The position numbers and the translations under genes were made by a program. Positions 13,009 through 27,091 of a stretch of DNA of 32,807 nt are shown here, piece after piece; position 1 is the stretch's first letter; the number at the start of each line of letters is the position of its first letter. The notes below the pieces were generated by a model. That model made no database searches and had not been told where the DNA came from. It worked only from the letters and a program-made list of their open reading frames with translations. The stretch comes from Candidatus Acidiferrales bacterium. Lineage in GTDB: Bacteria > Acidobacteriota > Terriglobia > Acidiferrales > UBA7541. The DNA lies in assembly GCA_030038275.1 (NCBI GenBank), contig JASHPG010000145.1, forward strand, positions 1 to 32,807. Reading direction: 5' to 3'.

Positions 13009-13695
13009 ATGATGCACTACATCGGCGACCATACACAACCGCAGCGCAAACGCAGGTCCTTCAATCGCCCGCTAGTGTGGGGATGTCTTTTCTTATCGCT
13101 ATTCGCGCTTACCGGCCGTGCTTGGGGGCAGGCTTCTGACAATCTTCGCATTCCAGCGACTTCGATTGGCCCCGGTTCTCAATTCGGAATCGCCGATTTC
13201 GATGGTGACCACCGCCCAGACATCGCCTACGTTCAGGCGGGACAAAGCTTCCAAGGCAATAATATCTACTGCATCGAATTTCGCCTTTCGTCGAGGGGGC
13301 CAAGTTGCTTCTGGCTCGTAGCGCCTTCAGGAGGTCTGTTCGTTGAGGCCCGCGACGTCAACGGTGACCATGCAATCGATTTGGTGGTTTCCACGGCATG
13401 GTTCAGGAAACCAGTAGCCGTTCTGCTGAATAATGGCCACGGTAACTTTACCGCAGCGAGCCCGTCTGCCTTTCCACATGCCTTTCAACAGGTGTCAAAC
13501 AAGGGCCTCTCCTCGCAGCAGCGCCTTGCGACTTCAATCAGTGCTCTCACGCAGTCGCGCGTGGGCGTGTGTACGGAGATGCCGCTCTCGGATCATGCGT
13601 CGCAAGCGAGATTTCGTCTGCTTTCAACCCTGGCGATTTTTTCCCCCCAATCGTTCCGCGCGCATCACGGCCGAGCTCCCCCGAGTCAAAGCTAA
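13009..13695 (+). CDS. Exported FG-GAP/VCBS-like protein next to the Czc operon
   Basis: The 228-residue product has a basic N-terminus and a hydrophobic segment (VWGCLFLSLFALTGRAWGQA), consistent with a signal peptide cut near residue 41. Two calcium-binding-type FG-GAP repeats follow: DFDGDHRPD at residues 63-71 and DVNGDHAID at 116-124, the second leading to VAVLLNNGHGNF. Two repeats are far too few for a full beta-propeller, so it may bind metal or assemble with partners. The last 75 residues have no recognised feature. The start is one of two adjacent ATGs (13009, 13012). It stands 129 bases before czcC and may be part of the metal-efflux unit, perhaps as a periplasmic accessory; that role is an inference. 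Confidence 0.7.
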   Translation: MMHYIGDHTQPQRKRRSFNRPLVWGCLFLSLFALTGRAWGQASDNLRIPATSIGPGSQFGIADFDGDHRPDIAYVQAGQSFQGNNIYCIEFRLSSRGPSCFWLVAPSGGLFVEARDVNGDHAIDLVVSTAWFRKPVAVLLNNGHGNFTAASPSAFPHAFQQVSNKGLSSQQRLATSISALTQSRVGVCTEMPLSDHASQARFRLLSTLAIFSPQSFRAHHGRAPPSQS

Positions 13696-13824
13696 GCACC
13701 AACCGTAGTGATTTCCCGCACCACGACAAACTGACCAGGCTGCGTGTCGAAGCGAGCCGTTCTCGGCTTGTTCACAGGAACGCAGTCACAACCACTATTG
13801 CTATAGGAAATCGGAGTTCACGAA

Positions 13825-15126
13825 ATGAAATCTGGAGTGTCTAGATGTGTGGCGGTGCTCACATATGTTTCGTTTAGCTGTGTTTTTCTCCTGTCGATTG
13901 CAGTAACTACAAGGGCGCAAACCACAGCTGCCTTGACCTGGGACCAAGTACGTCAGCGTTTCCAACAGAACAACCCGACGCTGCAGGCTGGCGAGACGGG
14001 TATCGCCGAATCCAGAGCTGAAGAGATTACCGCGTACTTGCGCCCGAACCCAGAGCTCACACTGACGGGAGATGGAACGCAGATCGCTCCGAATAAAGGC
14101 GTTTGGGTGCCGCTCGCCGGAACTTTTGAAGTCGCGTCAGTCAGTTACCTGCACGAACGCGATCACAAGCGGGAGCTGCGCCTGAAGAGCGCCCAGGAAG
14201 GAACGGCAATCGCGGTTTCGGGGCAGTCGGACTTGCAAAGGACGCTGCTCTTCGACCTTCGTACGGCTTTCGTTGCGACGCTCCAGGCAAAGGCGGACCT
14301 GCAGCTGGCCAAGGATGACTTGGCGTTTTGGGACCAAGTGCTCACCATTAGCAGCGATCGATACCACGCCGGAGACATAGCGAGCATCGACCTCGATCGG
14401 CTGGAACTGCAGCGCGTGCAGTTCGAATCAGACGTGCAGACGGCTGAAGTAAACCTGCGGACGGCAAAGATTCAACTGCTGGCGCTATTGAACGACCGGA
14501 CGCCGGTCGATCAGTTAGATGTTACGGGGCCGTTTGATTTTACAGACCAGCTTCCACCGGTCGATGACGTGCAAAACATGGCGCTGGCGAATCGGCCGGA
14601 CCTGCGCGAAGCGATGCAATCGGTCGATCAGGCGAAAGTGAATCACCAGTTAGCGGTGGCCGATGGCTCGACCGATCCGACGCTCAGCGCGTGGTACACG
14701 CATAACGCCTCCACCAACAACCCGTACGGCAACCAAACGCTGGGTGTGAGTATTGACGTCCCGCTGCGCATTTTCGACCGCAACCAGGGAGAGAAGCTGC
14801 GCACGCAATTGGATATCACGAAAAACCAACAACTCCTGAATGCCACCCAAGCACAGGTATTCAGCGACGTGGATTCAGCATACGCCCAGGTAAATAGTGA
14901 TCTGATCCTCCTGAGACCATACAAAGTGAAGTATCTGCAACAGGCCACGCGGGTGCGGGACACGATCCGGTTTTCGTATGAGCACGGAGGCGCATCGCTG
15001 CTCGATTTTTTGAACGCGGAAAGCGACTACCGAAACGTGCAACTCAGTTATTTGAATCTGATCGGCTCTTATTTGACAGCTGCGGCGCAATTGAACATGT
15101 CAGTAGGTCGGGAGGTGATCCAGTGA
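13825..15126 (+). CDS. czcC: TolC-family outer-membrane efflux protein (CzcC-like)
   Basis: The 433-residue protein has a signal peptide ending near residue 31 (VTTRAQ) and the two-fold alpha-helical repeat of TolC proteins. Examples are LTWDQVRQRFQQNNPTLQAG at the start of the first repeat and NRPDLREAMQSVDQAKVNHQ opening the second, followed by LSAWYTHNAS and VSIDVPLRIFDRNQGE. The ending SLLDFLNAESDYRNVQLSYLN is typical. It forms the outer-membrane channel of a tripartite resistance-nodulation-division (RND) pump. A GGAG lies upstream of the ATG. Its TGA overlaps the GTG of czcB (GTGA), so the two are translationally coupled. Confidence 0.9.
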   Translation: MKSGVSRCVAVLTYVSFSCVFLLSIAVTTRAQTTAALTWDQVRQRFQQNNPTLQAGETGIAESRAEEITAYLRPNPELTLTGDGTQIAPNKGVWVPLAGTFEVASVSYLHERDHKRELRLKSAQEGTAIAVSGQSDLQRTLLFDLRTAFVATLQAKADLQLAKDDLAFWDQVLTISSDRYHAGDIASIDLDRLELQRVQFESDVQTAEVNLRTAKIQLLALLNDRTPVDQLDVTGPFDFTDQLPPVDDVQNMALANRPDLREAMQSVDQAKVNHQLAVADGSTDPTLSAWYTHNASTNNPYGNQTLGVSIDVPLRIFDRNQGEKLRTQLDITKNQQLLNATQAQVFSDVDSAYAQVNSDLILLRPYKVKYLQQATRVRDTIRFSYEHGGASLLDFLNAESDYRNVQLSYLNLIGSYLTAAAQLNMSVGREVIQ

Positions 15127-16262
15127 CAAGTGTGCGAAATCTTGGCATCGCCAGCTGCCTTCTTGTCAGCTTCGCGTTGACATCCTGCGGAAACAAATTC
15201 GATCCCGCCTCGGGCGCGGCCGCGGCACCCCAAGTCGTGAACGTGAGCAACACAGATGTGGTCACGGTCGAAAATCCGAGCGAGTTTCCCCTCGTGGCCG
15301 CGGGAAGGATCGATGTTCCGCATAAACTGAACGTGACCGGCTCCGTCTTTCCCGATGTCAACCAGGAAGTTCCAGTTATTTCGCTCGCCAGTGGCCGGGT
15401 GGTCGACGTTCGCGTCACGTTGGATCAGAACGTGTCCAAGGGCCAGTTGATGATGCAGGTCCAAAGCCCTGACGTCACCAACGCCTTCGACGCGTACTTG
15501 AAGGCCACAAACGACGAGTCACTTGCGAATAATGCGTATGTGCGGGCGAAGCTCCTTTACAGCCATGGCGCGATCTCCCAAGGAATGCTGGAGCAGGCTC
15601 AGGACGCGGAAGGTGATGCCAAAGCAGATCTCGATGCGGCAAACCGCCAGCTGAACACGCTGGGCATCGACAAAAACAATCCGACGGACATTGTAAACGT
15701 CTACGCACCAATTTCCGGTGTGATCGTGGCGCAAAACGTCACCAACGCCGCAGCGACAGGCGTGACCTACTCCGGGTCAGCCACTGCCTTCACGATTGCC
15801 AATCTGTCCCACGTGTGGGTCATCTGCGATGTCTACGAGAACGATCTGCCGCAGGTGCGAGTCGGCCAGGAAGCGCGAATCAGCGTGGGCGGATATGCCA
15901 ATAGGGTGTTCACTGGCCGTGTGAGTGATGTTGGACCCGTTCTGGACCCAACGATTCGCACTGCCAAGGTGCGCATCGATGTTCCGAATCCAGGCATGCT
16001 GCGGCTGGGAATGTTCGCGACAGCGACGCTGATCGGTCAGACAAAGGAAGTGCACGCCATAGTACCGGCCGACGCCATTCTCCACCTGCACGATCAAGAC
16101 TGGGTTTACGAGCCGGTGGGTGGGAACCGCTTCCGGCGCGTTGCCGTGCAGGCCGGAGACATGCTGCCGGGCGGCAGTCAGGAAATTCTGTCTGGGATTG
16201 CGCCCGGACAGCAGCTGGTCCGGAGCGTTCTGCAGCTCGAATCGGTGCTGGAGGCACAATGA
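15123..16262 (+). CDS. czcB: RND efflux periplasmic adaptor lipoprotein (CzcB-like)
   Basis: The 379-residue adaptor begins at GTG 15123. It has a lipoprotein signal with lipobox LTSC, cysteine 22, so it should be anchored to the inner membrane by lipid. The membrane-fusion plan is visible: a first barrel/lipoyl half (PVISLASGRVVDVRVTLDQNVSKGQLMMQVQSPD), an alpha hairpin (about residues 120-180, with KLLYSHGAISQGMLEQAQD), the second lipoyl half (VYAPISGVIVAQNVTNA), then a beta-barrel (VWVICDVYENDLPQVRVGQEA). It joins the permease to the outer-membrane channel. No histidine-rich N-terminus, as some CzcB proteins have, is seen. Its stop overlaps the czcA start (ATGA). Confidence 0.9.
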   Translation: MTSVRNLGIASCLLVSFALTSCGNKFDPASGAAAAPQVVNVSNTDVVTVENPSEFPLVAAGRIDVPHKLNVTGSVFPDVNQEVPVISLASGRVVDVRVTLDQNVSKGQLMMQVQSPDVTNAFDAYLKATNDESLANNAYVRAKLLYSHGAISQGMLEQAQDAEGDAKADLDAANRQLNTLGIDKNNPTDIVNVYAPISGVIVAQNVTNAAATGVTYSGSATAFTIANLSHVWVICDVYENDLPQVRVGQEARISVGGYANRVFTGRVSDVGPVLDPTIRTAKVRIDVPNPGMLRLGMFATATLIGQTKEVHAIVPADAILHLHDQDWVYEPVGGNRFRRVAVQAGDMLPGGSQEILSGIAPGQQLVRSVLQLESVLEAQ

Positions 16263-19200
16263 TTCGCAAGCTCGTCGACTTCTCCCTCCAGAACAAATTC
16301 CTGGTGCTGGCGCTCGGCGTACTCCTGTTCGCCTGGGGCATGATCTCGTTTCATCAGCTACCCGTTGAGGCTTACCCCGACGTGGCCAACAACTACGTCG
16401 ATATCATCGCGCAGTGGCAGGGCATTTCCGCCGAACAGGTCGAGCAGCAGGTGACCATCCCCATTGAGGTCGTCATGAACGGCGTTCCCGGTGTGGCGCA
16501 CGTGCGCTCGTGGTCTATCTTCGGTCTCTCGACGGTCGAGCTGGTCTTCGGCGAAGAAACAACAGATTTCGAGAACCGTGAACGCGTGCTGGAGCGGCTC
16601 TCGCAGGTGAGCCTACCGCCGGGTGTGGTACCGCAGATGGGCACGGACTGGAGCCCCGTCGGCCAGATCTACTTTTACATCCTACGAAGCACTAATCCCG
16701 AATACGACGTGATGAATTTGAAGTCTCTGGATACCTGGGTGGTGCAGAAATACCTGAAGTCCGTTCCCGGCGTGGTTGATACCAATCCTTTTGGCGGTCC
16801 AACCCGTGAGTATCAGGTTCGCCTCGATCCAGACAAGCTGGTTAGCTATGGGTTAAGCCTCGCCCAGGTAGAGCAGCAGCTCACAAACAATAATGTGAAC
16901 GGCGGCGGCAGCTTCATTCAGGCGGGCGAGCAACAGATCAACGTACGTGAAGTGGGTCTCGTGCGCAACATTCAGGATATCGGCAACACCGTAGTGACCA
17001 CGAAAGGTGGAACGCCGATTCGGATCAAAGATCTGGGCATAGTCGAGCAGGGACCCATGATTCGTCTCGGGCAGTTCGGCAACGCCTATCACCGCGAGGA
17101 CGGAAAGCTGGTCGATGACGATGATGTCGTCTCCGGCATCGTCTGCCTGCAAAAGGGCGCCGATGCTCAACCGACGCTGGACGGAATCCACGAAATAGTG
17201 GACGAGCTGAACACGCAGATTCTCCCCAAAGGCGTCACCGTCCATCCCTTCATCGATCGTAGCGACCTGCTCCACTTCACCACGCACACGGTGCTGCACA
17301 ACCTGACCGAAGGCATCATTCTGGTGGTCGTGATTCTGCTTTTGCTCCTAGGCAACGTGCGAGGCGCGCTGATCGTGGCGCTGACGATCCCTTTTTCACT
17401 GCTCTTCGCCGCCACCTGCTTGCAGCTGAAACACATTCCCGCCAACCTTCTTTCGATCGGTGCACTCGATTTCGGCATGGTGGTAGACGGTGCTGTAGTG
17501 ATGGTGGAGAACATCGTCCGTCATCTTTCGCACACAGAAGGAAACGAGCGTCCCATCGAGACGCGCCTCGCGGAAGCAGCGCACGAGGTGCAGCGGCCAG
17601 TCTTCTATGCAATAGCCATCATCATCACCGCATACTTGCCCATCTTTATGCTGCAGGCCGTGGAAGGCCGCATCTTTCATCCCATGGCCTGGACGGTGGC
17701 GTTTGCGCTGCTGGGGGCATTGCTCTTTTCCATCATTCTGGCACCGGTTCTTTCCAGTTTCGCTTTCAGGAAGGGGGCGGGTGAGTGGAAGAACCCGGCC
17801 ATGGAGTTTCTGCGCGAACGTTACCGAAGTAGCGTTCATTGGAGCATCAGTCACCGCAATTTCACAGTTGGGATCGGCGTGGTGTGCTTGCTTCTAGCGA
17901 TCTATCTAGCTTTTGGTGGCGTGATCGGCTCCGAGTTTCTGCCGCATCTAGACGAGGGCGCACTGTGGGTCCGGGGCACACTCAATCAGAGTATCGGATC
18001 TACAGAGAGCGTCGCCATTGCCAACCAAGCCCGCGTGATTCTTTGCTCCTTTCCCGAAACCACGGAATGCACAAGTCAGACTGGCCGCCCCGATGACGGG
18101 ACGGACCACACCGGCTTCTTCAATACGGAATATTTCGTTGGCTTAAAGCCGGATAAGCAATGGCGCCCAGCCTTTCGCAGAAACAAAGACAACCTGATTG
18201 CTGCCATGAACTACGAGTTGCAGAAACGGTTCCCCACCGTCATCTGGGGTTTCTCGCAGCCCATTGAGGACAACATGGAGGAGGCGGTGAGCGGGGTGAA
18301 AGGAGAGCTGGCCACTAAAGTTTACGGCAGCGACTTACACACGCTTGAGGACCTTGCCGATCGAATAGCCGACATTATGAGCCGTGTCCCAGGGATTGCG
18401 GATCTCGGTGTTTTCCAGGTCACCGGCCAGCCCGATCTTGATATTCAGGTGGATCGGCAGAAGGCCGCACGATGGGGCATCAATGTCGGCGATGTTCAGG
18501 ATGCTGTGCAGACTGCTGTCGGGGGCACGGCACTGACCCAGGTGCTCCAGGGTGAACAAGTCTACAACCTCACGCTGCGGTATCTCCCGCAATACCGCGA
18601 CACAGAGGAGGCCATTCGCAATATCCGTCTGCTGGCTCCCAGCGGAGAGCGCGTTTCGCTCGCCCAGCTCTGCGACATTCGCGAAGCGGATGAAGGCTCG
18701 GAGATCTACCGCGAGAACAACCAGCGCTACGTGGCAATCAAGTACAGCGTCCGTGGCCGAGCGCTGGGAGATGCTGTGAGGGAAGCGATCGCAAAGGTAG
18801 ACGCGCAGGTGAAGCTGCCGCGCGGGTACCGCATCGGGTGGGAGGGTGAATACCAGAGCGAAGTGCGTGCCGAAAAGCGTATGGCTGTCATCGTCCCGCT
18901 CACGGTACTTGTGATCTTCATCATCCTGTATTCGATGTACCGATCTTTTAAATGGGCTCTGCTGATCCTTGCCACTGTGGCTATGGCCAGTATTGGTGGT
19001 TTGCTCGTGCTGCTGATCACGCACACCAATTTCAGTGTTTCGTCAGAAGTGGGTTTCCTGGCGCTGTTCGGTGTGTCGGTACAGACCGGCGTCATCATGC
19101 TGGAGTATATCAACCAGCTACGCGCGAGCGGTCGTTCGATCGAAGATTCCGCCGTCGAAGGCGCGGTTCTCCGGCTCCGCCCGATCATGATGACCATGCT

Positions 19201-19399
19201 GGTGGCGACCCTCGGTTTGCTGCCAGCGGCCATGTCTCACGCCATTGGCTCAGATTCGCAACGGCCATTCGCGATTGTCATTGTCGGGGGCCTGATCACC
19301 AACCTGCTGATGAGTGCGTTCCTGCTGCCGACGCTGTATGTGTGGGCGGCCAGGGAGGGCGACAGGCTTCCAGAGTCGGAAGAATCCCTTGAGGTGTGA
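16259..19399 (+). CDS. czcA: Heavy-metal efflux RND permease (CzcA family)
   Basis: The 1046-residue protein is a full-length RND permease of the heavy-metal (HME) class. Membrane helix 4 carries the HME proton-relay motif as D404, D410 and E417 in DFGMVVDGAVVMVENI, the pattern that separates divalent-cation pumps from drug pumps. TM1 is followed by HQLPVEAYPDVANNYVDI, and the second half repeats the fold (VIGSEFLPHLDEGALWVRGT, then TVLVIFIILYSMYRSF and QTGVIMLEYINQLR). It exports divalent metal ions such as Co, Zn, Cd or Ni from the periplasm or cytoplasm by proton antiport; the ion cannot be read from the sequence. Coupled start with czcB. No metal-sensing regulator gene lies nearby, so control is unknown. 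Confidence 0.93.
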   Translation: MIRKLVDFSLQNKFLVLALGVLLFAWGMISFHQLPVEAYPDVANNYVDIIAQWQGISAEQVEQQVTIPIEVVMNGVPGVAHVRSWSIFGLSTVELVFGEETTDFENRERVLERLSQVSLPPGVVPQMGTDWSPVGQIYFYILRSTNPEYDVMNLKSLDTWVVQKYLKSVPGVVDTNPFGGPTREYQVRLDPDKLVSYGLSLAQVEQQLTNNNVNGGGSFIQAGEQQINVREVGLVRNIQDIGNTVVTTKGGTPIRIKDLGIVEQGPMIRLGQFGNAYHREDGKLVDDDDVVSGIVCLQKGADAQPTLDGIHEIVDELNTQILPKGVTVHPFIDRSDLLHFTTHTVLHNLTEGIILVVVILLLLLGNVRGALIVALTIPFSLLFAATCLQLKHIPANLLSIGALDFGMVVDGAVVMVENIVRHLSHTEGNERPIETRLAEAAHEVQRPVFYAIAIIITAYLPIFMLQAVEGRIFHPMAWTVAFALLGALLFSIILAPVLSSFAFRKGAGEWKNPAMEFLRERYRSSVHWSISHRNFTVGIGVVCLLLAIYLAFGGVIGSEFLPHLDEGALWVRGTLNQSIGSTESVAIANQARVILCSFPETTECTSQTGRPDDGTDHTGFFNTEYFVGLKPDKQWRPAFRRNKDNLIAAMNYELQKRFPTVIWGFSQPIEDNMEEAVSGVKGELATKVYGSDLHTLEDLADRIADIMSRVPGIADLGVFQVTGQPDLDIQVDRQKAARWGINVGDVQDAVQTAVGGTALTQVLQGEQVYNLTLRYLPQYRDTEEAIRNIRLLAPSGERVSLAQLCDIREADEGSEIYRENNQRYVAIKYSVRGRALGDAVREAIAKVDAQVKLPRGYRIGWEGEYQSEVRAEKRMAVIVPLTVLVIFIILYSMYRSFKWALLILATVAMASIGGLLVLLITHTNFSVSSEVGFLALFGVSVQTGVIMLEYINQLRASGRSIEDSAVEGAVLRLRPIMMTMLVATLGLLPAAMSHAIGSDSQRPFAIVIVGGLITNLLMSAFLLPTLYVWAAREGDRLPESEESLEV

Positions 19400-19460
19400 C
19401 CGTAAAGACCTATGCGCGGACTGGTGTGGCGGCTGAATTGTTTTGAAGAGGTAGGTTGTT

Positions 19461-19919
19461 ATGCACAACGTTGTCCTATTGGGCGGCGGAACAGTTGCAT
19501 TTTTTTGGCTCTTACTCATGCTTGCTGACTATGGCTGGGAAAGAAAGAAACGTCGAGGTTTCGCTCCAGGACCTCTGCCGGATCGACGAGAACAATTACG
19601 CGAGCGGACAACGTACGGGTGGTACTCGTGGGTTCGGTATCTCATCATAATTCTATTGACGTACATAAATACGGTGGCAGTTCTAAATTCCGGGCCTGAC
19701 AACCATGAGAGTTTCGTTTCACCTCTGCGGGTGGTTTCGCTATTCTTGATCGTGATCCTGTTTTCAATCGCTCTGCTAATTATCGATGGATATTGGGACA
19801 GAAGGCGCGGCGAATTGATGGGCAGTCGAAAGACCCTATTTTTCCTGTACTTTTGGATCCGGTATCCAGCGTTGATCTTCGCGACAATCCAACTCACACG
19901 ACGAGGATTTGAGGCCTAA
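19461..19919 (+). CDS. Small membrane protein of unknown function
   Basis: The 152-residue product has about four hydrophobic segments: residues 3-23 (NVVLLGGGTVAFFWLLLMLAD), about 57-75 (WVRYLIIILLTYINTVAVL), about 90-110 (VVSLFLIVILFSIALLIID) and about 126-145 (LFFLYFWIRYPALIFATIQL). Basic loops lie between them. A GAGG stands upstream of the ATG. It follows czcA by 61 bases on the same strand and could be read through from it, but the base composition is noticeably more AT-rich than the Czc genes, suggesting a separate origin. No family is recognised. Confidence 0.6.
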   Translation: MHNVVLLGGGTVAFFWLLLMLADYGWERKKRRGFAPGPLPDRREQLRERTTYGWYSWVRYLIIILLTYINTVAVLNSGPDNHESFVSPLRVVSLFLIVILFSIALLIIDGYWDRRRGELMGSRKTLFFLYFWIRYPALIFATIQLTRRGFEA

Positions 19920-20103
19920 ATGAACCCGCTGTCGGGCCAAAGTAAACGCATGGCTTGCCTAATATAGCGCCCGAATCAAGTGGCGCGGTTTGCGCTTCCG
20001 CTCCCCAACCCTTAAGCCTGCGCAGATGCTCGCTTACCGGGAATTTGCGCCGTTGACTGTCCCCGGATAGTTTTGAAAGCAACCCAGGTGACAAACCCTG
20101 TCG

Positions 20104-20560
20104 TCAGTGATTCCGAAACTCTTTGGCGATACGCGACCGAGAATGCGGGCTGCCGCAACTACGGGTTAGAGGTTGGAGCGCCGTGCCGTCCGACGTCGTC
20201 AGCACATCTGCACTCTTCGTGCGCGAGGCGGCGCGCTTAGGCCGGACTTCAAATTGCACGCCCTCGCTTTCCTGCAAGTACTTGACGATCTCAAACAAAT
20301 TTCGCGCTTGAGGATTGCCGTGCGGTCCGAGCATTCGCATCAGACTCTTTGCGGAACGATGCGTGATTTCGCTCAGCTTGTGGAATCCCACGGTTGCGTT
20401 AATGAAATCGCGCAGAACGATCTTGCCGGTCTCAACATCACCGGAGAGAAAGTTTTCGACGCCCTCGCGCAGAAGCGCCTCGCGAAAACCGGGATCACGT
20501 TGAACGCGCGCCTGGATCGCTTCCGAGGTGATTTGCGCGGTGGGTCGTCCTCGGATAGTT
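20104..20560 (-). pseudogene. Antitoxin gene remnant, duplicate of 21527-21910
   Basis: Translated on this strand, the region reads QARVQRDPGFREALLREG, then ENFLSGDVETGKIVLRDFIN and HKLSEITHRSAKSLMRMLGP, almost the same as the intact antitoxin 1.4 kb away. The shared DNA includes a perfect 49-base stretch (20327-20375 with 21690-21738) and the similarity continues past the C-terminus. Here the N-terminal MALTRDF is replaced by unrelated residues without a start codon at that place, and no toxin gene lies upstream. It is most likely a decayed copy left by duplication or by insertion of the next module. An internal GTG start (20391) could still give a short product. Confidence 0.65.
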
Positions 20561-20620
20561 CCGAAAGCACGACCGGCGCGTAATCGGGAACTTCAGGGAG
20601 AGTGCCACCCAGAGCAGCCC

Positions 20621-20650
20621 TTGACAGATATATAAGTTCTTATATACACT
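20621..20650 (+). promoter_or_regulatory. Promoter with operator-like palindrome for the first toxin-antitoxin pair
   Basis: TTGACA at 20621-20626 is followed by TACACT at 20645-20650 (18-bp spacer); TATACA at 20643-20648 is an alternative with 16 bp. In the spacer lies tatataagttcttatata (20629-20646), two perfect 8-base arms with a 2-base centre. A HigA-type repressor bound there would block the polymerase. The expected transcript start falls on or next to the GTG at 20656, so the toxin message may have no leader. Confidence 0.6.
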
Positions 20651-20655
20651 TAGCC

Positions 20656-21027
20656 GTGACCAGCCCAGGTTCGGAAACCCGCATTCGTTGGCTTGGGGAC
20701 TCGCAAGATGTCATCCGTGGATTCTCCAAAGATGCGCGCCAGAACCTTGGGAACGATTTGCAGCGTCTCGACGAAGGTGAGGAGCCTCTGGATTTCGCTC
20801 CAATGGGTGCCGTTTTGCCGGGCGTCTTTGAGCTTCGGGACCGCGATTCCGAACATTGGTACAGAGTCCTCTACATTCCCTTGGAGGGCTCGATTTATGT
20901 ATTGCACTGCTTTACGAAAAAGACCAATCAAACGCCGCCGAAAGAGATTGAAACCGCCAGAAAGCGACTCCAGCTTCTAAGGCAAGAGGTCGCGAGGCGG
21001 AAGAAAGAGGCCAAGCATGAAAAGTAA
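20656..21027 (+). CDS. HigB-like toxin (RelE/Gp49 family)
   Basis: The product is about 123 residues if the GTG at 20656 is used; the open frame reaches back to 20602 but that would place the start upstream of the promoter. RIRWLGDSQDVIRGFSKDAR, then LQRLDEGEEPLDFAPM, WYRVLYIPLEGSIYVLHCF and the tail TKKTNQTPPKEIETARKRL are the pattern of PF05973 (phage-derived Gp49-like, HigB2) toxins. These are ribosome-dependent endoribonucleases that cut translated mRNA. The gene overlaps the start of the XRE antitoxin by 11 bases, the toxin-first order of higBA modules. It should stabilise the element in its host. Confidence 0.88.
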   Translation: MTSPGSETRIRWLGDSQDVIRGFSKDARQNLGNDLQRLDEGEEPLDFAPMGAVLPGVFELRDRDSEHWYRVLYIPLEGSIYVLHCFTKKTNQTPPKEIETARKRLQLLRQEVARRKKEAKHEK

Positions 21028-21283
21028 CGTGTTCGAGCAAATCGGCTTCTCCCCGGAAGAAGCAGCCTCACTGAAGATGAAGTCGGAGCTGCACTCGCAG
21101 ATCGTGAAGACGATCAAAAAGCGTGGATACACACAAGCGGACTTGCAAAAGCGATTGGACGAGCCACAGCCAAGGGTCAGCGATTTAATGACGGGAAAAA
21201 TCTCGAAGTTCAGTTTGGAAACGCTGATCAGCTACGCCGAGGCGTTAGGCTTACACCCGCAGATTCTCGTCGGAGCACGCTAG
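21017..21283 (+). CDS. HigA-like antitoxin, XRE-family regulator
   Basis: The 88-residue protein is a helix-turn-helix antitoxin: residues about 25-80 (HSQIVKTIKKRGYTQADLQK, RVSDLMTGKISKFSLETLIS and YAEALGLHPQ) match the XRE/HTH_37 type that goes with Gp49-like toxins. It overlaps the toxin gene by 11 bases, so translation is coupled. By analogy with HigBA it neutralises the toxin and represses their common promoter, for which the palindrome at 20629-20646 is a fitting operator. Confidence 0.88.
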   Translation: MKSNVFEQIGFSPEEAASLKMKSELHSQIVKTIKKRGYTQADLQKRLDEPQPRVSDLMTGKISKFSLETLISYAEALGLHPQILVGAR

Positions 21284-21429
21284 GGAACACGCGGGCGCGC
21301 CGGCGTGACCCTGCGGACCTTTCGGCGGCCACGCAAACTCTTTTCCTCTGCGATTATTTCAGCCGCGCGGTCCTCGACCTTCTTCCGCTCGGCTGGACTC
21401 AGCTTCCGAATTACTTCATTCACGTTCAC
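21280..21429 (-). CDS. Short HigA-type antitoxin N-terminal fragment
   Basis: A 49-codon frame starts at GTG 21429 and ends at TAG 21280-21282, sharing its stop bases with the end of higA on the other strand. The translation includes NEVIRKLSPAERKKVEDRAA and EIIAEEKSLRG. This is the helical N-terminus seen in XRE antitoxins of RelE-type modules, but no helix-turn-helix follows; the tail is basic (RRKVRRVTPARPRVP). A GGGGA lies about 10 bases before the GTG. It may be the stump of a lost third module or a small functional protein. Confidence 0.45.
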   Translation of the reverse strand: MNVNEVIRKLSPAERKKVEDRAAEIIAEEKSLRGRRKVRRVTPARPRVP

Positions 21430-21526
21430 GGATGGTTACGTCCCCTTTCCCCTTCCGACAAGCAAATTGAATTGAACCATCGCCGACGGATATGTGTCGA
21501 GAATGCGGCTTCCACGCGACTGCGGG

Positions 21527-21910
21527 CTAGAAGTTCGAACGTCGTGCCGTGCGAACTGTCGCAGGCATGTCGGTGCGCTTCTTGCGCGATGCGGCACGCG
21601 TTGGCCTGACTTCGAAGCGCACGCCTTCCGCTTCCTGCAAATACTTCACGACCTCAAATAGATTCCGCGCTTGAGGATTACCGCGCGGCCCGAGCATTCG
21701 CATCAGACTCTTTGCGGAACGATGCGTGATTTCGCTCAATTTGGGAAACCCCACTGTGGCGTTGATGAAATCGCGAAGGATGATCTTTCCGGTCTCAACA
21801 TCGCCGGAGAGAAAGTTTTCGATGCCCTCGCGCAGAAGTGCCTCACGAAAGCCAGGGTCGCGTTGAACGCGCGCCCGGATAGTCTCTTTGAAATCTCGTG
21901 TCAATGCCAT
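21527..21910 (-). CDS. Antitoxin / DNA-binding regulator of a RelE-type module
   Basis: The start is the ATG at 21910 (MALTRDFKETIRARVQRDPGF), with GAGGTAAGG just upstream overlapping the end of the toxin gene. The protein (127 residues) is of the HigA-like antitoxin kind: a helical N-terminus (REALLREGIENFLSGDVETG), then IILRDFINATVGFPKLSEITHRSAKSLMRMLGPRGNPQARNL-type residues forming the helix-turn-helix. It lies 5 bases after the toxin stop, toxin first. The basic C-terminal tail (VRPTRAASRKKRTD) is longer than usual. A decayed second copy stands at 20104-20560. Confidence 0.8.
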   Translation of the reverse strand: MALTRDFKETIRARVQRDPGFREALLREGIENFLSGDVETGKIILRDFINATVGFPKLSEITHRSAKSLMRMLGPRGNPQARNLFEVVKYLQEAEGVRFEVRPTRAASRKKRTDMPATVRTARRSNF

Positions 21911-21915
21911 TGGCC

Positions 21916-22245
21916 TTACCTCTCTGTCCCTTTTCGTTCCTTGTAGTCCTGCCATCGGACGAGTGCTGTTGAGATGTCCGTGTGCTGGCGTCTTTTCGTG
22001 CCGCCGCCAAGGAGTATCACCAGCCGCTCGCCATCCTTCCCGAAGTAGATGCGGTAACCCGGGCCGAAATCAATCCTGTACTCGTAAACGCCAGTCCCAA
22101 CGCCCTTTGCGTTAGAAAAATTCCCTTGCTGTATTCGTGCGAGAGCAGCGGCAACTTTCGCGGCTGCTTCTTTGTTCAAGCTATCGGACCACGCGGCGAA
22201 TGGGCTGTGTCCACGACGGTCCAGGTATTCGCGTACTTCGATCAT
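21916..22245 (-). CDS. RelE/ParE-family toxin
   Basis: The start is best at ATG 22245 (MIEVREYLDRRGHSPFAAW); the frame is open further upstream but those codons lie beyond the promoter. The 109-residue product has the addiction-module killer pattern: PFAAWSDSLNKEAAAKVAAA, the basic strand GVYEYRIDFGPGYRIYFGKD, and VILLGGGTKRRQHTDISTAL with a C-terminal basic helix. It should inhibit translation by mRNA cleavage. Its expected transcript start is on the ATG itself, so the message would be leaderless. Confidence 0.88.
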   Translation of the reverse strand: MIEVREYLDRRGHSPFAAWSDSLNKEAAAKVAAALARIQQGNFSNAKGVGTGVYEYRIDFGPGYRIYFGKDGERLVILLGGGTKRRQHTDISTALVRWQDYKERKGTER

Positions 22246-22278
22246 GTTAGATGGTAACACAAACGGTACCAATGTCAA
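22245..22278 (-). promoter_or_regulatory. Promoter and operator of the RelE-type module
   Basis: On the minus strand TTGACA (22278-22273) and TACCAT (22256-22251) are 16 bp apart. The palindrome TGTTA-N5-TAACA occupies 22245-22259, overlapping both the -10 box and the start codon of the toxin. Binding of the antitoxin there would shut off the module. Confidence 0.55.
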
Positions 22279-22323
22279 TAAGCCACGATTCGATCTGCAT
22301 AACCTACCATAAGAATCTTGTGC

Positions 22324-22352
22324 TTGACAATATGTACGCTATACATTACACT
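22324..22352 (+). promoter_or_regulatory. Promoter with central operator for the membrane protein/XRE pair
   Basis: TTGACA (22324-22329) and TACACT (22347-22352) are 17 bp apart. The inverted repeat ATGTA-cgcta-TACAT (22332-22346) fills the spacer. This is a clean site for autorepression by the XRE regulator encoded second in the operon. Confidence 0.65.
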
Positions 22353-22376
22353 CATCGAAGTTTTCGGGAGGCCCGT

Positions 22377-22763
22377 ATGCTTGTTCAATCCCCGGAGAAT
22401 CTAGCGCACCGCCGTCAAAGTGCTCTCTGGCTCTTCTATGGCGCTGCAGTGGTTTCCGCAATCGCGATCAGCGCAGTCGGTAAGGTTCCTTCTCTTCGTG
22501 TTCCGGTCCTCGCTCTCGCTGTTCTGGCAGCAGGGGCCGCGATTCTGTTTCTCCTTCGCTTCCTCCGCTCGAACGATGAGCGCGAGCAACAAATCAACTA
22601 CCGCGCCCTGACGTTTGCGTTCGCCGGCACACTAATTTTCTCGCTCACTATCGGCTATTCGCAGGCCGTCGGTTTCCATTCCGTGTCATGGCTGGGAATC
22701 CCGGCATTGATGGTCGTGCTGTGGAGCATCGGCCTCATTTTGTATTCATGGCGGTACCGATGA
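22377..22763 (+). CDS. Four-helix membrane protein paired with an XRE regulator
   Basis: The start is the ATG at 22377 with GGGAGG 5 bases before it; in-frame codons from 22251 lie before the promoter. The 128-residue protein has four hydrophobic segments (LWLFYGAAVVSAIAISAV, VPVLALAVLAAGAAILFLLRF, LTFAFAGTLIFSLTIGY and GIPALMVVLWSIGLILYSW). A conserved-looking acidic loop NDEREQQINYRAL sits between helices two and three. Small membrane proteins with a DEREQ loop are commonly encoded just before an XRE regulator, but their job is not known to me; sensing or anchoring the regulator is a guess. Its TGA overlaps the ATG of the next gene. Confidence 0.75.
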   Translation: MLVQSPENLAHRRQSALWLFYGAAVVSAIAISAVGKVPSLRVPVLALAVLAAGAAILFLLRFLRSNDEREQQINYRALTFAFAGTLIFSLTIGYSQAVGFHSVSWLGIPALMVVLWSIGLILYSWRYR

Positions 22764-22978
22764 AGACCCGGCTACGTGTGTTACGCGCAGAAGTGGAATG
22801 GTCGCAGGCCGAGCTCGCGGCGCGTGTCGGGGTAGCTCGCGGAACCATCAATGCCATTGAAACTGGCAGGTACGATCCCAGCTTGCCGCTGGCGTTCAAA
22901 ATCGCGCGGGCGTTCGGAAAGAATGTTGAAGAGGTGTTTCTGTACGCCGAAGACCAGGAGCACCAGCCCCGGTCCTGA
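22760..22978 (+). CDS. XRE-family transcriptional regulator
   Basis: The 72-residue protein starts at ATG 22760, which overlaps the stop of the membrane protein (ATGA). MKTRLRVLRAEVEWSQAEL, then AARVGVARGTINAIETGRYDPS and LAFKIARAFGKNVEEVF form a complete Cro/C1-type helix-turn-helix with almost nothing else. It closely resembles the short regulators that go with DEREQ-loop membrane proteins. It probably binds the ATGTA-N5-TACAT site in its own promoter. Confidence 0.9.
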   Translation: MKTRLRVLRAEVEWSQAELAARVGVARGTINAIETGRYDPSLPLAFKIARAFGKNVEEVFLYAEDQEHQPRS

Positions 22979-23002
22979 ATTGAAGAGCCCTGGAGAATCG
23001 CG

Positions 23003-23920
23003 ATGGACCTCCCGTACAACGTCTCCGATTTTGCGTTTCCCTCTCGATGGGACTCGGACTCCGACCCGACCGTGGTCGAGCGTGCGGGCAGACCGGAAAT
23101 CGCCGACAGAACACGGACCGAATCTGCCCGCGACAAAGATTCCGATTCCGGCGCGTCGCGAGGCTCCGACCGATCCAGAACGATCTATCGAGGACGTGAG
23201 CGCGAGTACTCTCTGCGCGATTCGGAAGTCCGCACGCTTGCCGATGTCGGCAGATTTCGCGTGGTTCCGACCGAAGACTTGGCACGTTTCGGATACCAGG
23301 GCGATCAGGCCCGTATGGAAGCAGACATCAGAAATCTGCGAAAGCACGGCCTTGTCGAGCAGCGGTTGATCGAAGGCCACTCCTCGTATTCCACGAAGGC
23401 CCTGACGCTAACGAAGGAAGGCCACCGGCTGTTAAAACGCGCGCAGATAGTCCCGGATCAGCAAGCAATCTACCACGGCCTTGTGAAGCCAAAAGAGGCC
23501 CGCCACGACGCCGAGCTTTACCGGCTGTATCAAAAGGTCGCACGAGAAATAGAACGTTCAGGCGGCAAGGTTCGACGCGTAATCCTCGATCTGGAACTCA
23601 AGAAAGATGTCTACCGGGCGCTGGCCCGAATACGGCCAGACAAGGATGAAGCGTATGAGCGAATCTCGGTCGCCAGCCGCTTCGATTTGAAGGTGGTCGG
23701 GGACAAGATTCCCATTCCCGATCTGCGCATCGAGTGTGAGGACGACTCCCGCGAGGTGCACCGGCTCGACCTTGAAGTTGCCACTCGCGACTACCGACCC
23801 CACGGTCTGGGCGAGAAAGCGAAGGCCGGTTTCCATCTGTTCGCTCGACCACAAGACCACGACAGGTTACGTCGCGTGCTTGATTCTCAGGAAATCACGG
23901 CCAGGATTTTTGCCCTATGA
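23003..23920 (+). CDS. Replication-relaxation family protein (winged helix plus nuclease-like domain)
   Basis: The 305-residue protein has a charged, probably disordered N-terminus (residues 15-65, rich in D, R and S). A winged helix-turn-helix follows (about 70-150: DSEVRTLADVGRFRVVPTED, NLRKHGLVEQRLIEG and LTLTKEGHRLLKR). The C-terminal half (RHDAELYRLYQKVAREIE, then IPIPDLRIECEDDSREVHRLDLEVATRDYRPHGLGEKAKAG in pieces) resembles the Replic_Relax fold (PF13814) found on plasmids and integrative elements. PDLRIE, LDLEVA and the following lysines could be a PD-(D/E)xK-like core. Its stop overlaps the next start (ATGA). Role: probably replication or mobilisation of the element; not proven. Confidence 0.65.
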   Translation: MDLPYNVSDFAFPSRWDSDSDPTVVERAGRPEIADRTRTESARDKDSDSGASRGSDRSRTIYRGREREYSLRDSEVRTLADVGRFRVVPTEDLARFGYQGDQARMEADIRNLRKHGLVEQRLIEGHSSYSTKALTLTKEGHRLLKRAQIVPDQQAIYHGLVKPKEARHDAELYRLYQKVAREIERSGGKVRRVILDLELKKDVYRALARIRPDKDEAYERISVASRFDLKVVGDKIPIPDLRIECEDDSREVHRLDLEVATRDYRPHGLGEKAKAGFHLFARPQDHDRLRRVLDSQEITARIFAL

Positions 23921-25002
23921 AATTCCTTCCGATCCACATCGACGCCCTGCGCAGCTTTGGCTATACCGAGGAAGAAGCACGTTTCCTCTACCTTGTGGCC
24001 ACCCATTCCGGCTACTTCACTTGCCAGCAGTTCTTGCATTTCATCCAGACGAAGCCAGGCAAGCGCAGTGTGGCATTTGCGCAAAAGGTGATCGAGAAAA
24101 AGCACGCGAAGACGAAGCCGTATCTCCGGCATGGCCGCGTGTTTCACCTTTTCTCACGCAATCTGTATGAAGCCATCGGCAGGGAAAATGTCCGCTTCAG
24201 GCGCGTTCATTCAACTCAATACATCCGAATGCGGCTCATCGCCCTGGATTTTGTTCTCCGAAATCAAGACGTGACGTACCTCGAAACCGAAGAGCAGAAG
24301 CTCACATTTTTCTGCGACCAAATGGGAATCGCCAAGAAAATCCTTCCCCACAAGCGGTATTCGGGGGCGATCAAAGGCGAGTTCACCGACCGCTATTTCG
24401 TGGACAAATTCCCGATGTTCTACAACCCCAGCGTGTCTCTGCCGCCTGTGGTCACCTTGAGTTTCATCGATCCAGGGTTTGAGAGCATGGAGAGTTTCAG
24501 GACCCACCTGGACGCATATATGACGCTCTTCACTAAGCTCAGCCAGGTCCGCCTCTATTACATCGCGACCCGCGACACGAATTTCGAGCGTGCCAGGAAG
24601 CTCTTCCACGAGACGTTTCAACGGCTCTGGAACCCCGATTCTCCGTTCGGACTGCTCCAATATTTCCGCACGCGTCGGCTCTGGGATGAGAAGCAATTCG
24701 CCAAACTGAACAACCGGGACATCGAGTTTTTGAATCTGTCGCAAGAGCGCTTTGGCAACCCTGGAATCGAAGACCTATACAAGAAATGGTGGGTCGGCAC
24801 GATGACAGAGAACACGGTGCGGTCCGAATCCATCAAGTACCGCCAGCCATCGCAGGCCGCGCTTATCTCCATTATCGTGAACGGGCAGGCTGCATTATTC
24901 GAGACGCATCCGCACCGGCCCGTAAATGTGCCGGTGAAAAGCTCCGGGGAAGCACTTTTCCAGGGAGATTTCACCTCCCGGTTCAGTGAAGCGAGAACCT
25001 AA
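23917..25002 (+). CDS. Conserved mobile-element protein coupled to the replication-relaxation gene
   Basis: The 361-residue protein starts at an ATG overlapping the TGA of the upstream gene, so the two are made together. The N-terminus (IDALRSFGYTEEEARFLYLV, then THSGYFTCQQFLHF and KRSVAFAQKVIEKKHAKT) looks like a winged helix-turn-helix with a basic recognition region. The rest (RMRLIALDFVLRNQDVTYLE, CDQMGIAKKILPHKRY and RARKLFHETFQRLW) is not assigned to a family I can name. I recall similar proteins beside replication-relaxation genes in acidobacterial elements, but no function. A DNA-binding partner of the upstream protein is the natural guess. Confidence 0.6.
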   Translation: MKFLPIHIDALRSFGYTEEEARFLYLVATHSGYFTCQQFLHFIQTKPGKRSVAFAQKVIEKKHAKTKPYLRHGRVFHLFSRNLYEAIGRENVRFRRVHSTQYIRMRLIALDFVLRNQDVTYLETEEQKLTFFCDQMGIAKKILPHKRYSGAIKGEFTDRYFVDKFPMFYNPSVSLPPVVTLSFIDPGFESMESFRTHLDAYMTLFTKLSQVRLYYIATRDTNFERARKLFHETFQRLWNPDSPFGLLQYFRTRRLWDEKQFAKLNNRDIEFLNLSQERFGNPGIEDLYKKWWVGTMTENTVRSESIKYRQPSQAALISIIVNGQAALFETHPHRPVNVPVKSSGEALFQGDFTSRFSEART

Positions 25003-25050
25003 CCCGAAGAAAGAACAAGAAAATGCGCGAGACCAGGCACGGAAATGGAA

Positions 25051-25179
25051 CGCGGCCAAAACACGACCAGAGGCGGGAGCGACCCCATCGCGCCGCAGAA
25101 TCGCGGCCCGATCCCTTCGGGCTTCGGGGGTCACTCCCGCCTCTTTCTGCTGGGAAGCGCAGCTCGTGTTTTGGCCGCG
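25051..25179. repeat. Large branched inverted repeat (cruciform/structured element)
   Basis: An outer 16-bp perfect stem pairs 25051-25066 (cgcggccaaaacacga) with 25164-25179. An inner 18-bp stem pairs 25069-25086 with 25127-25144 at 17 positions. The right side has an extra 19 bases (25145-25163) that contain their own CTGC/GCAG hairpin, making a three-way junction. The apex (25087-25126) holds a 6-bp GCCCGA/TCGGGC hairpin and a CGCG/CGCG pair. The one mismatch (C at 25080, A at 25133) becomes a G-U pair in a minus-strand RNA. It sits in the gap after the replication-relaxation pair; candidates are a replication or transfer origin, or a structured RNA. Confidence 0.8.
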
Positions 25180-25253
25180 AGCTATCGGCAAATTCCAAGG
25201 GCTTTGTAAGACAAGTTGTCAGACAAACTCCGAATGAGGATTGAGGACGAAAC

Positions 25254-25490
25254 ATGGCGATCATCAAAGCACCACCCAAACAACCTAAGTCAGTCGCGAT
25301 CCAAGCGCGAGTTGCGGAAGCCATCAAGAATCAATTGGACGGCTACGCAGAATTCATCGGCTCAACTCCGTCCTACGTGATTACCGAGGCTCTGAAAGAC
25401 TTGTTCAGGCGGGACAAGGAATTCAAGTCTTGGCAGGACCAACACGCGTGTGATGCGGGCGAGGATGCGCCCGCTGTGCATCATGCGTGA
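25254..25490 (+). CDS. Small ribbon-helix-helix-like DNA-binding protein
   Basis: The 78-residue protein has a GAGGA upstream of its ATG. VAIQARVAEAIKNQLDGYAEFIGSTPSYVITEALKDLF has the strand-helix-helix rhythm of CopG/Arc-type regulators: a short strand, a helix, then the STPSYVITEAL helix. Proteins of this kind on mobile elements control copy number, transfer or an antitoxin. It stands 75 bases after the branched inverted repeat, which could be its target. The final codons overlap a hairpin (arms 25451-25460 and 25469-25483). Confidence 0.6.
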   Translation: MAIIKAPPKQPKSVAIQARVAEAIKNQLDGYAEFIGSTPSYVITEALKDLFRRDKEFKSWQDQHACDAGEDAPAVHHA

Positions 25491-25592
25491 CACCGATGCC
25501 CCTGAATCACGGCAGCGGCAAATGCAGGGGACCACAGGGGGAGAGAACACGAATTTGTCACATTCAGTTCCATCCAGGAGTAGCTGCGAGCA

Positions 25593-25838
25593 ATGGTCGT
25601 CGAACTACAACTCGAAACCTCAGTGCACATCGAGCGGCACTATGCCGTTACGGAAATCGCTGAGATGTGGAACCTCAGTCCTGATAAAGTTCGTGAAATT
25701 TTCGAGGGTGAACCAGGTGTGCTTGTGATTGGAGATCGCAGTCCCCGCCACAAGAGACGCTATGTTACGCTGCGGATTCCGCATTCTGTATTACAGCGGG
25801 TCCACCGGCGACTATCGGCGAAAGCTGCTGTTCGCTAG
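25593..25838 (+). CDS. Excisionase-like helix-turn-helix protein
   Basis: The 81-residue protein lies 12 bases before the integrase gene on the same strand. HYAVTEIAEMWNLSPDKVREIF is a MerR/excisionase-type helix-turn-helix, followed by a wing (GVLVIGDRSPRHKRRYVTLRIPHSVLQRVHRRL). Small basic proteins next to a tyrosine integrase usually serve as recombination directionality factors that favour excision. A GGAG precedes the ATG. The assignment rests on position and helix-turn-helix, not on a close family match. Confidence 0.6.
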   Translation: MVVELQLETSVHIERHYAVTEIAEMWNLSPDKVREIFEGEPGVLVIGDRSPRHKRRYVTLRIPHSVLQRVHRRLSAKAAVR

Positions 25839-25850
25839 GAGTGTTGCGCG

Positions 25851-27080
25851 ATGCTGACCATTTACCGCCGTCACCGAACAAGCTGCAAGCAGCGCACGAA
25901 AGGGCGCAAGCACCGGCATTGCCAGTGCCCTATTTGGGTTGATGGCTTCCTTGGCGGCAAGGAGATGCGCGAGTCTCTCAAGCTGCGCGATTGGCAGCGA
26001 GCGCAAGAGATGGTCCGCGAATGGGAAGCCGAGGACCGGCGGACACGCCAGACGGAGCAGCAAATAACGATTAAGGATGCTCATCGGAAATTCATTGCGG
26101 ACGCCGAAGCGCGGAAATTGAATCAATCGACCCTATACAAGTATCGTCTCCTATTCCAAGAGCTTGACGCTTTCACGGAAGCATACAAGCTGCAATTCCT
26201 CGCACAACTGGACCTCGACACGCTTGCAACGTTTCGTGCGACGTGGACACAAGGGCCGCGCACGAGCCTCAAGAAGCTGGAACGCCTGCGGGCATTCATG
26301 CGGTTTGCTGAAAAGAGAAAATGGATTGCCGACAATCCAGCAATTGACTTGAAGGCTCCCAAGGTGCCGAACAAGCCCACGATGCCCTTTACGCGGGAAG
26401 AGATGACTCGGATGGTTGCGGCCCTTGAACCTTATGGCGAGAGCGCCGGCAAACGCAATGCGCAGCGCCTCAGAGCTTTTCTGCTTTTGCTGCGCTATTC
26501 TGGGCTTCGAATCGGAGATGCAACACAGCTTGAAGTGAGCCGCCTAAACGGGAACAAGCTGCTTCTCCATACGCAGAAAACCGGCGTGCCTGTGTATTGC
26601 GTCTTACCGGATGCCGTTGTGGAGGCATTGGAAATAGCGCCGCGTTCGAGCGAGCGATATTTCTTCTGGACAGGCGCATCCACAGTGCGGAGCGCAAAAG
26701 GAAAATGGCAGCGGCGCTTGCAGCGCCTCTTTGAATTCGCAAAGGTTCCCACCGGCCATCCGCACCGCCTCCGCGATACGTTTGCGGTCGAATTGCTTCT
26801 CGCAGGTGTGCCTCTCGATAGAGTCTCCATCCTTCTCGGGCACAGTAGCATCCGCATTACGGAACGGCATTACGCGCCATGGACGCGATCTCGCCAAGAG
26901 CAGATCGAAGCCGACCTCCGGGCCGCTTGGAGCAACGATCCGCTCGTTAAAGAGGTACACGCGGGGTACACGGCGAGACCCGCCGCCAGAACTCGCGTGT
27001 TTTCATGGAGAAAGATTGGTAGGGGCGGTGGGGATCGAACCCACGACCTTCGGCTTAAAAGGCCGCTGCTCTACCACTGA
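25851..27080 (+). CDS. Tyrosine integrase of the tRNA-Lys element
   Basis: The 409-residue enzyme has all the catalytic residues of tyrosine recombinases: R220 (GLRIGD), a beta-hairpin lysine (HTQKTG), H305 and R308 (HPHRLRDTFA), H331 (LGHSS) and the nucleophile Y341 (ERHYAPW). The N-terminus has a cysteine/histidine cluster (CKQRTKGRKHRHCQC) that may bind zinc. A SAM-like core-binding region follows (about 65-165). It cuts and joins DNA at the att cores. The end of the frame (IGRGGGDRTHDLRLKRPLLYH) is simply the antisense reading of the tRNA gene, so the last 12 codons are host DNA. In the excised circle the frame would instead end KSDAENS and TAA. Confidence 0.93.
   Translation: MLTIYRRHRTSCKQRTKGRKHRHCQCPIWVDGFLGGKEMRESLKLRDWQRAQEMVREWEAEDRRTRQTEQQITIKDAHRKFIADAEARKLNQSTLYKYRLLFQELDAFTEAYKLQFLAQLDLDTLATFRATWTQGPRTSLKKLERLRAFMRFAEKRKWIADNPAIDLKAPKVPNKPTMPFTREEMTRMVAALEPYGESAGKRNAQRLRAFLLLLRYSGLRIGDATQLEVSRLNGNKLLLHTQKTGVPVYCVLPDAVVEALEIAPRSSERYFFWTGASTVRSAKGKWQRRLQRLFEFAKVPTGHPHRLRDTFAVELLLAGVPLDRVSILLGHSSIRITERHYAPWTRSRQEQIEADLRAAWSNDPLVKEVHAGYTARPAARTRVFSWRKIGRGGGDRTHDLRLKRPLLYH
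26952..26973 (+). repeat. Right arm-type site candidate (two GGTACAC repeats)
   Basis: GGTACAC occurs at 26954-26960 and 26965-26971, 11 bp apart, inside the 3' end of the integrase gene. The block matches the left one at 20 of 22 bases, and also lies on the element side of its core. Confidence 0.55.
27017..27037. repeat. attR-like core in the tRNA-Lys 3' end
   Basis: This is the right copy of the 21-bp direct repeat shared with 12588-12608. It covers the CCA, discriminator, 3' acceptor strand and part of the T arm of the tRNA-Lys gene, a usual attachment site for tyrosine integrases. Confidence 0.88.
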
Positions 27081-27091
27081 GCTACGCCCCT
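27017..27091 (-). tRNA. tRNA-Lys (anticodon TTT), CCA encoded
   Basis: Read on the minus strand from 27091, the acceptor AGGGGCG pairs with CGCCCCT. The D stem is GCTC/GAGC, the anticodon loop CTTTTAA gives TTT, and the T arm GTGGG-TTCGATC-CCCAC is complete, followed by A and encoded CCA. The 27-43 pair of the anticodon stem is a G-A mismatch. The gene is intact although it is the integration target, because the element restores the 3' end. Confidence 0.95.

Follow-up and report, generated by a model that had tools for sequence, protein, structure and literature searches.

Inverted repeats have been described in the transfer origins (oriTs) of pAD1 and pAM373 (PMC5587640). The MOBC relaxases, of which PF13814 is the Pfam model (PMC5357655), are described as restriction-endonuclease-like, with an N-terminal winged helix in TraX of pAD1, and the auxiliary relaxosome proteins as mostly of the ribbon-helix-helix (RHH) type (PMC12857230). 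pAM373 was examined here together with five plasmids encoding relatives of its relaxase, which were chosen from 282 matching records (relaxases 41-73% identical to that of pAM373; only pAM373 and L194 of the six are typed MOBC). In all six, a nested inverted repeat measuring 141-166 bp preceded the relaxase gene; in the five annotated plasmids it was located between this gene and the T4CP gene. The repeat of pAM373, presumably its mapped oriT, has an inner stem of 25 bp and an outer stem of 18 bp in a total of 142 bp. Residues D152, E170, E172, R180, Y181 and Y203 were invariant in the six plasmid relaxases; such residues are said to be catalytic in TraX in the 2013 work of Francia et al. An earlier sequence-only reading of the locus described below knew of no family with its shape: the plasmid repeats, likewise nested and of similar size, qualify this remark. 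No description of the hairpin family itself, of the accompanying two-gene module or of their spread in Acidobacteriota was found in searches of the open-access PMC literature, nor one of any transfer origin for this phylum.

The window, i.e., the whole 32,807-nt stretch of DNA of a Candidatus Acidiferrales bacterium that was analyzed, contains a giant nested inverted repeat in the non-coding gap between the stop of the P0002 gene (25002) and the next ORF start (25254). Its features are collected in the table; below, G numbers denote genomes and L numbers denote loci. Arm complementarity confirmed the two stems proposed by the sequence-only reading: a perfect outer stem of 16 bp (25051-25066/25164-25179, 100% complementary) and an inner stem of 18 nt (25069-25086/25127-25144, 94% complementary, one mismatch) with a 40-nt spacer and the core AGCGACC. 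Folding of both strands reproduced the branched apex (25087-25126) and showed that the 19 extra bases on one side (25145-25163) fold on themselves as a side hairpin, while the mismatch was indeed a G-U pair solely on the minus strand and C.A on the plus strand. The minimum free energy was -86.6 kcal/mol for the plus and -93.8 kcal/mol for the minus strand (z -8.4 and -9.8, respectively), with 0 of 200 dinucleotide shuffles folding equally well on either strand, and no deeper 130-nt fold was present in the window sampled every 15 bases. The full-length hairpin is a single copy in its own genome, and an Rfam scan of the window at gathering scores had a tRNA as the sole match, the hairpin matching no family.

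Features of the hairpin locus and the surrounding element (positions in the window)
Feature	Position	Strand	Basis
Attachment-site repeat, left element end	12588-12611	.	repeat comparison
P0001, 305 aa, winged helix and C-terminal alpha/beta domain; candidate divergent MOBC-like relaxase	23003-23920	+	
P0002, 361 aa, winged helix and alpha/beta domain; usual hairpin partner; candidate relaxosome subunit	23917-25002	+	
Giant nested inverted repeat, candidate origin of transfer	25051-25179	.	arm complementarity, folding, alignment
RHH-like protein, 78 aa, directly 3' of the hairpin; candidate relaxosome accessory protein	25254-25490	+	
Helix-turn-helix (HTH) protein, 81 aa, putatively excisionase-like by position	25593-25838	+	matches below cut-off
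Tyrosine integrase of the element; tRNA-Lys overlaps its 3' end	25851-27080	+	
Attachment-site repeat at tRNA-Lys, right element end	27017-27040	.	repeat comparison
tRNA-Lys, overlapped by the 3' end of the integrase gene	27017-27091		

The pairing proved to be conserved among homologous loci. In an alignment of 19 rows, 92% of the stem cells paired, compared to 78% in shuffles and 39-48% with one arm slid, and two-sided changes were present in 10 of the 19 stem pairs. A further 25 hairpins that had not been used for training showed the same, and among them pair 12, for example, was A-T in 14 and G-C in 11; this set includes the near copies L172 and L174 and omits 4 of the 29 non-training loci (L149, L150 and L171, located more than 1.9 kb from P0002, and L151, cut off by a contig end). 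The compensatory changes that the sequence-only reading proposed to look for were thus found. The stems stay paired despite numerous changes on both sides, and the loss of pairing among homologous loci, named in that reading as a refutation, does not apply. The core AGCGACC/GGTCGCT persisted while the outer stem changed on both arms, and in some solo copies the core itself was altered on both arms (GCAACC/GGTTGC in L100, L108 and L106). A protein-bound palindromic operator controlling the P0001-P0002 or the integrase operon would suit a palindrome located between operons with winged-helix proteins beside it, but would be expected to keep its sequence rather than its pairing, while here the outer stem differs between lineages and the pairing stays; we regard this role as extremely unlikely.

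The composition of the pairs is informative on the nature of the conserved molecule. In 42 hairpins (the set used for pair counts and flanks, with the near copies L172, L054 and L045 additionally omitted), the 672 cells of pairs 2-17 comprised 648 Watson-Crick, 9 G-U, 3 A-C and 12 other combinations. A structured RNA expressed from the gap, serving as a regulator or a guide with P0002 as its binding protein, would agree with the conserved pairing and with the deep fold on both strands, of which the minus strand is the more stable; against it, only 9 of the 672 cells were G-U on the gene strand (still exceeding the 3 A-C), many sites scored with the covariance model on both strands, and Rfam offered no match at gathering scores. 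An RNA, one of the four options considered in the sequence-only reading, is therefore disfavored and seems very improbable, while the two-sided drift combined with few G-U cells points to a DNA structure. In the 42 flanks, a search for a recurrent binding repeat beside the hairpin revealed only upstream words of the GGCGGC/GCCGCC type (GGCGGCG in 28 of the 42 upstream flanks, compared to no more than 8 for any word in shuffles), which perhaps represent the P0002 terminator. A second small GC hairpin, GGCGGC...TGCCGCC, was also seen within 150 bp upstream of the large one in many loci (L052, L057, L145).

An exact copy (21 of 21 bases) of the 3' end of tRNA-Lys (27017-27037) is present at 12588-12608; over 24 bases (12588-12611 vs 27017-27040) the identity is 96%. 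The region 12588-27040 is therefore best regarded as an integrative element of 14.4 kb, located at tRNA-Lys and putatively able to excise. The integrase ORF extends 40 bases beyond the right end repeat. The genes at this end follow the order P0001, P0002, hairpin, 78-aa RHH-like ORF, 81-aa HTH ORF and tyrosine integrase; the RHH fold of the 78-aa protein was assigned by eye from the sequence pattern, and the protein matched a PHROG transcriptional repressor (E 2.7e-4). The hairpin thus combines a non-coding location, inverted repeats and a position beside the DNA-processing genes of a mobile element, as expected for an oriT. The end repeats also enclose an RND-type efflux system (OEP, HlyD, ACR_tran; 13825-19399) and a Gp49/HTH_37 gene pair (20602-21283), which we take to be of the HigBA-like toxin-antitoxin type, and a gene for a histidine-specific methyltransferase (PF10017; 28975-29961) is located just outside the element.

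Homologues of P0002 were present in 25 of the 297 genomes of the phylum, and folding of their loci revealed deep hairpins adjoining P0002 in many of them, with the core AGCGACC/GGTCGCT in common (AACGACC in some) and with variable outer stems and apices. A motif rule placed a hairpin 3' of a P0002 copy in 19 of the 20 larger loci, and in the remaining one (L042) it was found by the covariance model R1, built from 19 hairpin sequences. With strict filters, R1 detected the hairpin in 26 of the 297 genomes: 24 had both hairpin and P0002, one only P0002 (G066), two only the hairpin (G088 and G291) and 270 neither, and G066 has a hairpin according to the motif rule and the model search of its locus. 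The significance of this co-occurrence (Fisher p 6e-32) is overstated, as the model derives from hairpins next to P0002. With 17 of the 25 P0002 genomes having supplied sequences to R1, a cleaner test is provided by a set of 51 loci with a gene for a P0001 relative, almost all of them in records with the title Acidobacteria; in 47 of these P0002 was adjacent to the P0001 relative. Where at least 700 bp were available downstream of the pair, a hairpin was present in the locus in 34 of 39 cases and within 1 kb in 30; without the six training loci these numbers were 28 and 24 of 33, a recurrence downstream of similar gene pairs of the kind that the sequence-only reading proposed to search for. 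It was mostly located 19-362 bp 3' of P0002, and no hairpin was found in the locus for five of the 39 pairs (L144, L157, L160, L165, L173).

Counted over 44 P0002 places (collected loci and the window), the hairpin was present within 1 kb in 32 and absent in 12, the latter comprising, among others, L049 and L051 (second gene copies), L115 (gene fragments) and places in the genomes G050 and G024. In five genomes of family f48 (G160, G108, G214, G168, G222) no P0001 was found at lax thresholds in about 19 kb around P0002 and the hairpin. Loci L046, L048, L049, L051 and L056, all from one family, had P0002 and the hairpin with no P0001 in the stretch read, and the second P0002 copy in L049 and L051 lacked a hairpin and had a small conserved ORF after it. 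Proteins of the P0001/P0002 type were also encoded in records titled Cyanobacteria (L132, L146, L147, L171; these may be contigs of G167, a genome of the window's phylum) and in records titled Gemmatimonadaceae or Gammaproteobacteria (L141; L142). Scans of plasmids with the hairpin DNA, P0002 and P0001, and of viral contigs with P0002 and the P0001 alignment, both of which catch close relatives or few patterns, gave no relative. The hairpin is a real DNA structure, conserved and carried by mobile elements of Acidobacteriota together with a pair of relaxase-like genes.

The contexts in which the hairpin occurs are ICE-like, IME-like and solo, the solo sites being no more than putative mobile elements. 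In ten conjugative loci with P0001, P0002 and T4CP (L039-L045, L050, L116, L118) the hairpin was located between P0002 and T4CP; it was followed by an RHH-like ORF in eight of them (not seen in L040 and L118), and a VirB11-type ATPase followed T4CP in six, as judged by protein clusters. Pfam matches for proteins of example conjugative loci included T4CP, T2SSE/VirB11, VirB8, TrbL, VirB4-like and TrbI, and in G139 and G061 all of T4CP, VirB11, VirB8, TrbL, VirB4-like and TrbI were present within about 20 kb. The RHH-like protein of the window gave no blastp alignment with its L041 counterpart, the likeness being supported by the sequence pattern, the position and a single tblastn match in L050 (E 1.9e-5). 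In the loci of the mobilizable type, including the window, P0001, P0002 and the hairpin are followed by a tyrosine or serine integrase. A palindrome next to a gene for DNA processing would equally suit a replication origin of the excised element, either double- or single-strand, with P0001 and P0002 as initiators and with transfer secondary or absent, and relaxases and rolling-circle initiators are described as overlapping in function (PMC5714925, PMC5357655); the position of the module next to T4CP in conjugative loci and the occurrence of solo hairpins without P0001 and P0002 nearby nevertheless make this origin unlikely.

Outside G050 and G024, solo hairpins without P0002 within 4.5 kb had an integrase within 3 kb at 8 of 12 sites (one of the eight being a fragment at a contig end), or at 9 of 15 with the inclusion of three sites having P0002 about 4 kb away; the genomes concerned have 4-14 integrases each, counting the tyrosine type only. 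G050 and G024 contain 14 and 6 hairpin places (L088-L098), respectively, with an integrase within 3 kb at only 3 of the 18 listed solo sites, and the nine solo copies without P0002 that were compared had near-identical stems, which would fit better with a dispersed repeat family in one genus. These numerous copies, together with the solo copies near integrases elsewhere, would be in line with a role of the hairpin in recombination or insertion, as a site of the att or integron attC kind, or with a dispersed repeat of the MITE/REP type. Such an explanation is, however, quite improbable for the hairpin of the window, considering that the likely ends of the element are at 12588 and 27017 and not at the hairpin, that the hairpin stands beside T4CP in conjugative loci and in G139 is about 16 kb away from the recombinase found, and that the integrase of the window is not of the integron type (20.5 bits with the integron-integrase model at a curated cut-off of 265). 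In two different genomes, two hairpins were located about 430 bp apart beside a serine recombinase (L100, 6588-7099; L108, 6576-7083), one of each pair having the GCAACC/GGTTGC core changed on both arms.

The predicted model of P0001 (mean pLDDT 81.9) consists of a winged helix and an alpha/beta C-terminal domain. The N-terminal winged helix agrees with that expected of MOBC relaxases, Foldseek matching it mostly to winged helices of the MarR/PadR type, and the C-terminal domain carries a motif of D240, D256-x-E258 and Y264: in 43 sequences D240, E258, Y264 and R265 were invariant and D256 was kept in at least 90%. The best 50 Foldseek rows for P0001 were winged-helix proteins and other non-nucleases, with no nuclease among them. 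PF13814 did not match P0001 of the window and matched 2 of the 21 homologues, the best at 2.8e-5 and the other (L118) at 0.015, below cut-off; the pAM373 relaxase itself scored 27.1 bits, just above the cut-off of 25.3. In hhalign, P0001 aligned with the pAM373-type relaxases with a probability of 6% and in the winged helix only. With neither the PF13814 cut-off reached by the window's protein nor homology found in the catalytic part, the hairpin system is not classed as a member of MOBC. In P0002 no conserved nuclease motif was recognized by eye, its top Foldseek row was a weak match to the restriction enzyme SdaI (E 0.087, prob 0.51), and it had no match to plasmid relaxases; the structure search gave no firm nuclease assignment for either protein. 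A profile comparison of P0001 with P0002 found no homology, so paralogy of the two is not supported. The "replication-relaxation" label attached to this gene pair by the sequence-only reading received no backing from Pfam, NCBIfam or PHROGs for the two proteins of the window, and a weak one through the P0001 homologues.

Known relaxases in the carrier genomes were searched for with PF03432, PF08751, PF03389, PF07514, PF13814 and PF02486; the PF01076 profile gave no match even in the controls and is uninformative. The 99% complete genome G139, with the module in a conjugative locus, had no match to the six families at the thresholds used, and the same was true for G269 and G168, while PF13814 had no match in the 14 genomes searched. 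The only match in G054 was to PF07514, below cut-off. G061, G094 and G163 contained known relaxases, on separate contigs or, for G094, at a distance of about 480 kb, and the fragmented assemblies G066 and G222 had TrwC matches on other contigs. In G108, PF03432 and PF03389 matches were located 33-37 kb away on the same contig, so its element may hold another relaxase. Guglielmini et al. (2011) reported numerous type IV secretion loci with no relaxase close by and considered two explanations, relaxases of unknown type and systems that are not conjugative (PMC3158045). The gene pair with the hairpin in conjugative loci of Acidobacteriota represents a concrete candidate for such missing relaxases.

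Among the options of the sequence-only reading a transfer origin is best supported, given the gene order, the matching repeat of the MOBC plasmids and the solo copies near integrases. Set beside the observed conservation, covariation, gene order, element boundaries and the lack of a match to the six relaxase families in one carrier genome, the likely role of the hairpin is that of a cis-acting oriT on which a divergent MOBC-like protein pair acts, which would make the 14.4-kb integrative element a mobilizable one. The best outside support for this is architectural, by analogy with the nested repeat beside the pAM373-type relaxase genes. Against an oriT stand the 12 of 44 P0002 places where 1 kb contains no hairpin, the five of 39 gene pairs lacking one in their locus, and the weak MOBC homology, as well as the f48 loci without P0001, the G050/G024 copies resembling a dispersed repeat and the position of the repeat after, and not before, the genes.

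For an oriT, we infer binding, nicking, the strand, the helper and transfer as follows. The integrase would excise the element from tRNA-Lys, and P0002 and/or P0001, helped by the RHH-like protein, would bind the palindrome via their winged helices. Melting of the supercoiled DNA would allow a strand to extrude as a stem with the branched apex, and P0001, as a divergent MOBC-like nuclease with the D...(D/E)xE...Y pattern, would nick one of the strands within the palindrome or close to it. This strand may then be taken over by the coupling protein and type IV secretion system that a co-resident conjugative element provides, and re-pairing of the hairpin on the transferred strand may help resealing in the recipient. 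If this reading is right, an oriT with its relaxase is a function of a known kind. Whether the findings reach further, to an additional relaxase system beyond the nine MOB families, we consider evenly balanced: a winged-helix pair acting on a conserved but sequence-drifting hairpin would be used by conjugative elements of Acidobacteriota otherwise scored relaxase-less and copied as a bare oriT by relaxase-less islands. The covariance model provides a handle for candidate transfer origins in Acidobacteriota, even at sites without a relaxase-like gene.

The attC sites of integrons are long imperfect inverted repeats with a conserved core and a variable stem. The hairpin has the same general build, but differs in its core, in the integrase of the window, which by score is not of the integron type, and in being the only hairpin in its element. 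As a whole, the element resembles the SGI1-type IMEs and the oriT-only elements mimicking the oriT of their helper, having an integrase, a tRNA site, cargo and either a mobilization module or a matching oriT alone (PMC6414798, PMC11389934), albeit with a different relaxase type and in a different host phylum. With the oriT of MOBC plasmids (pAM373, pAD1; Replic_Relax) it shares a nested giant inverted repeat near a winged-helix relaxase or relaxase-like gene and a T4CP gene. In contrast to the pAM373 type, where the repeat is located upstream of the relaxase gene, it is downstream of a gene pair in the window; the repeats have nothing visible in common beyond GACC/GGTC, and two proteins with an RHH-like partner are present instead of one, aligning by profile with the pAM373 type in the winged helix only.
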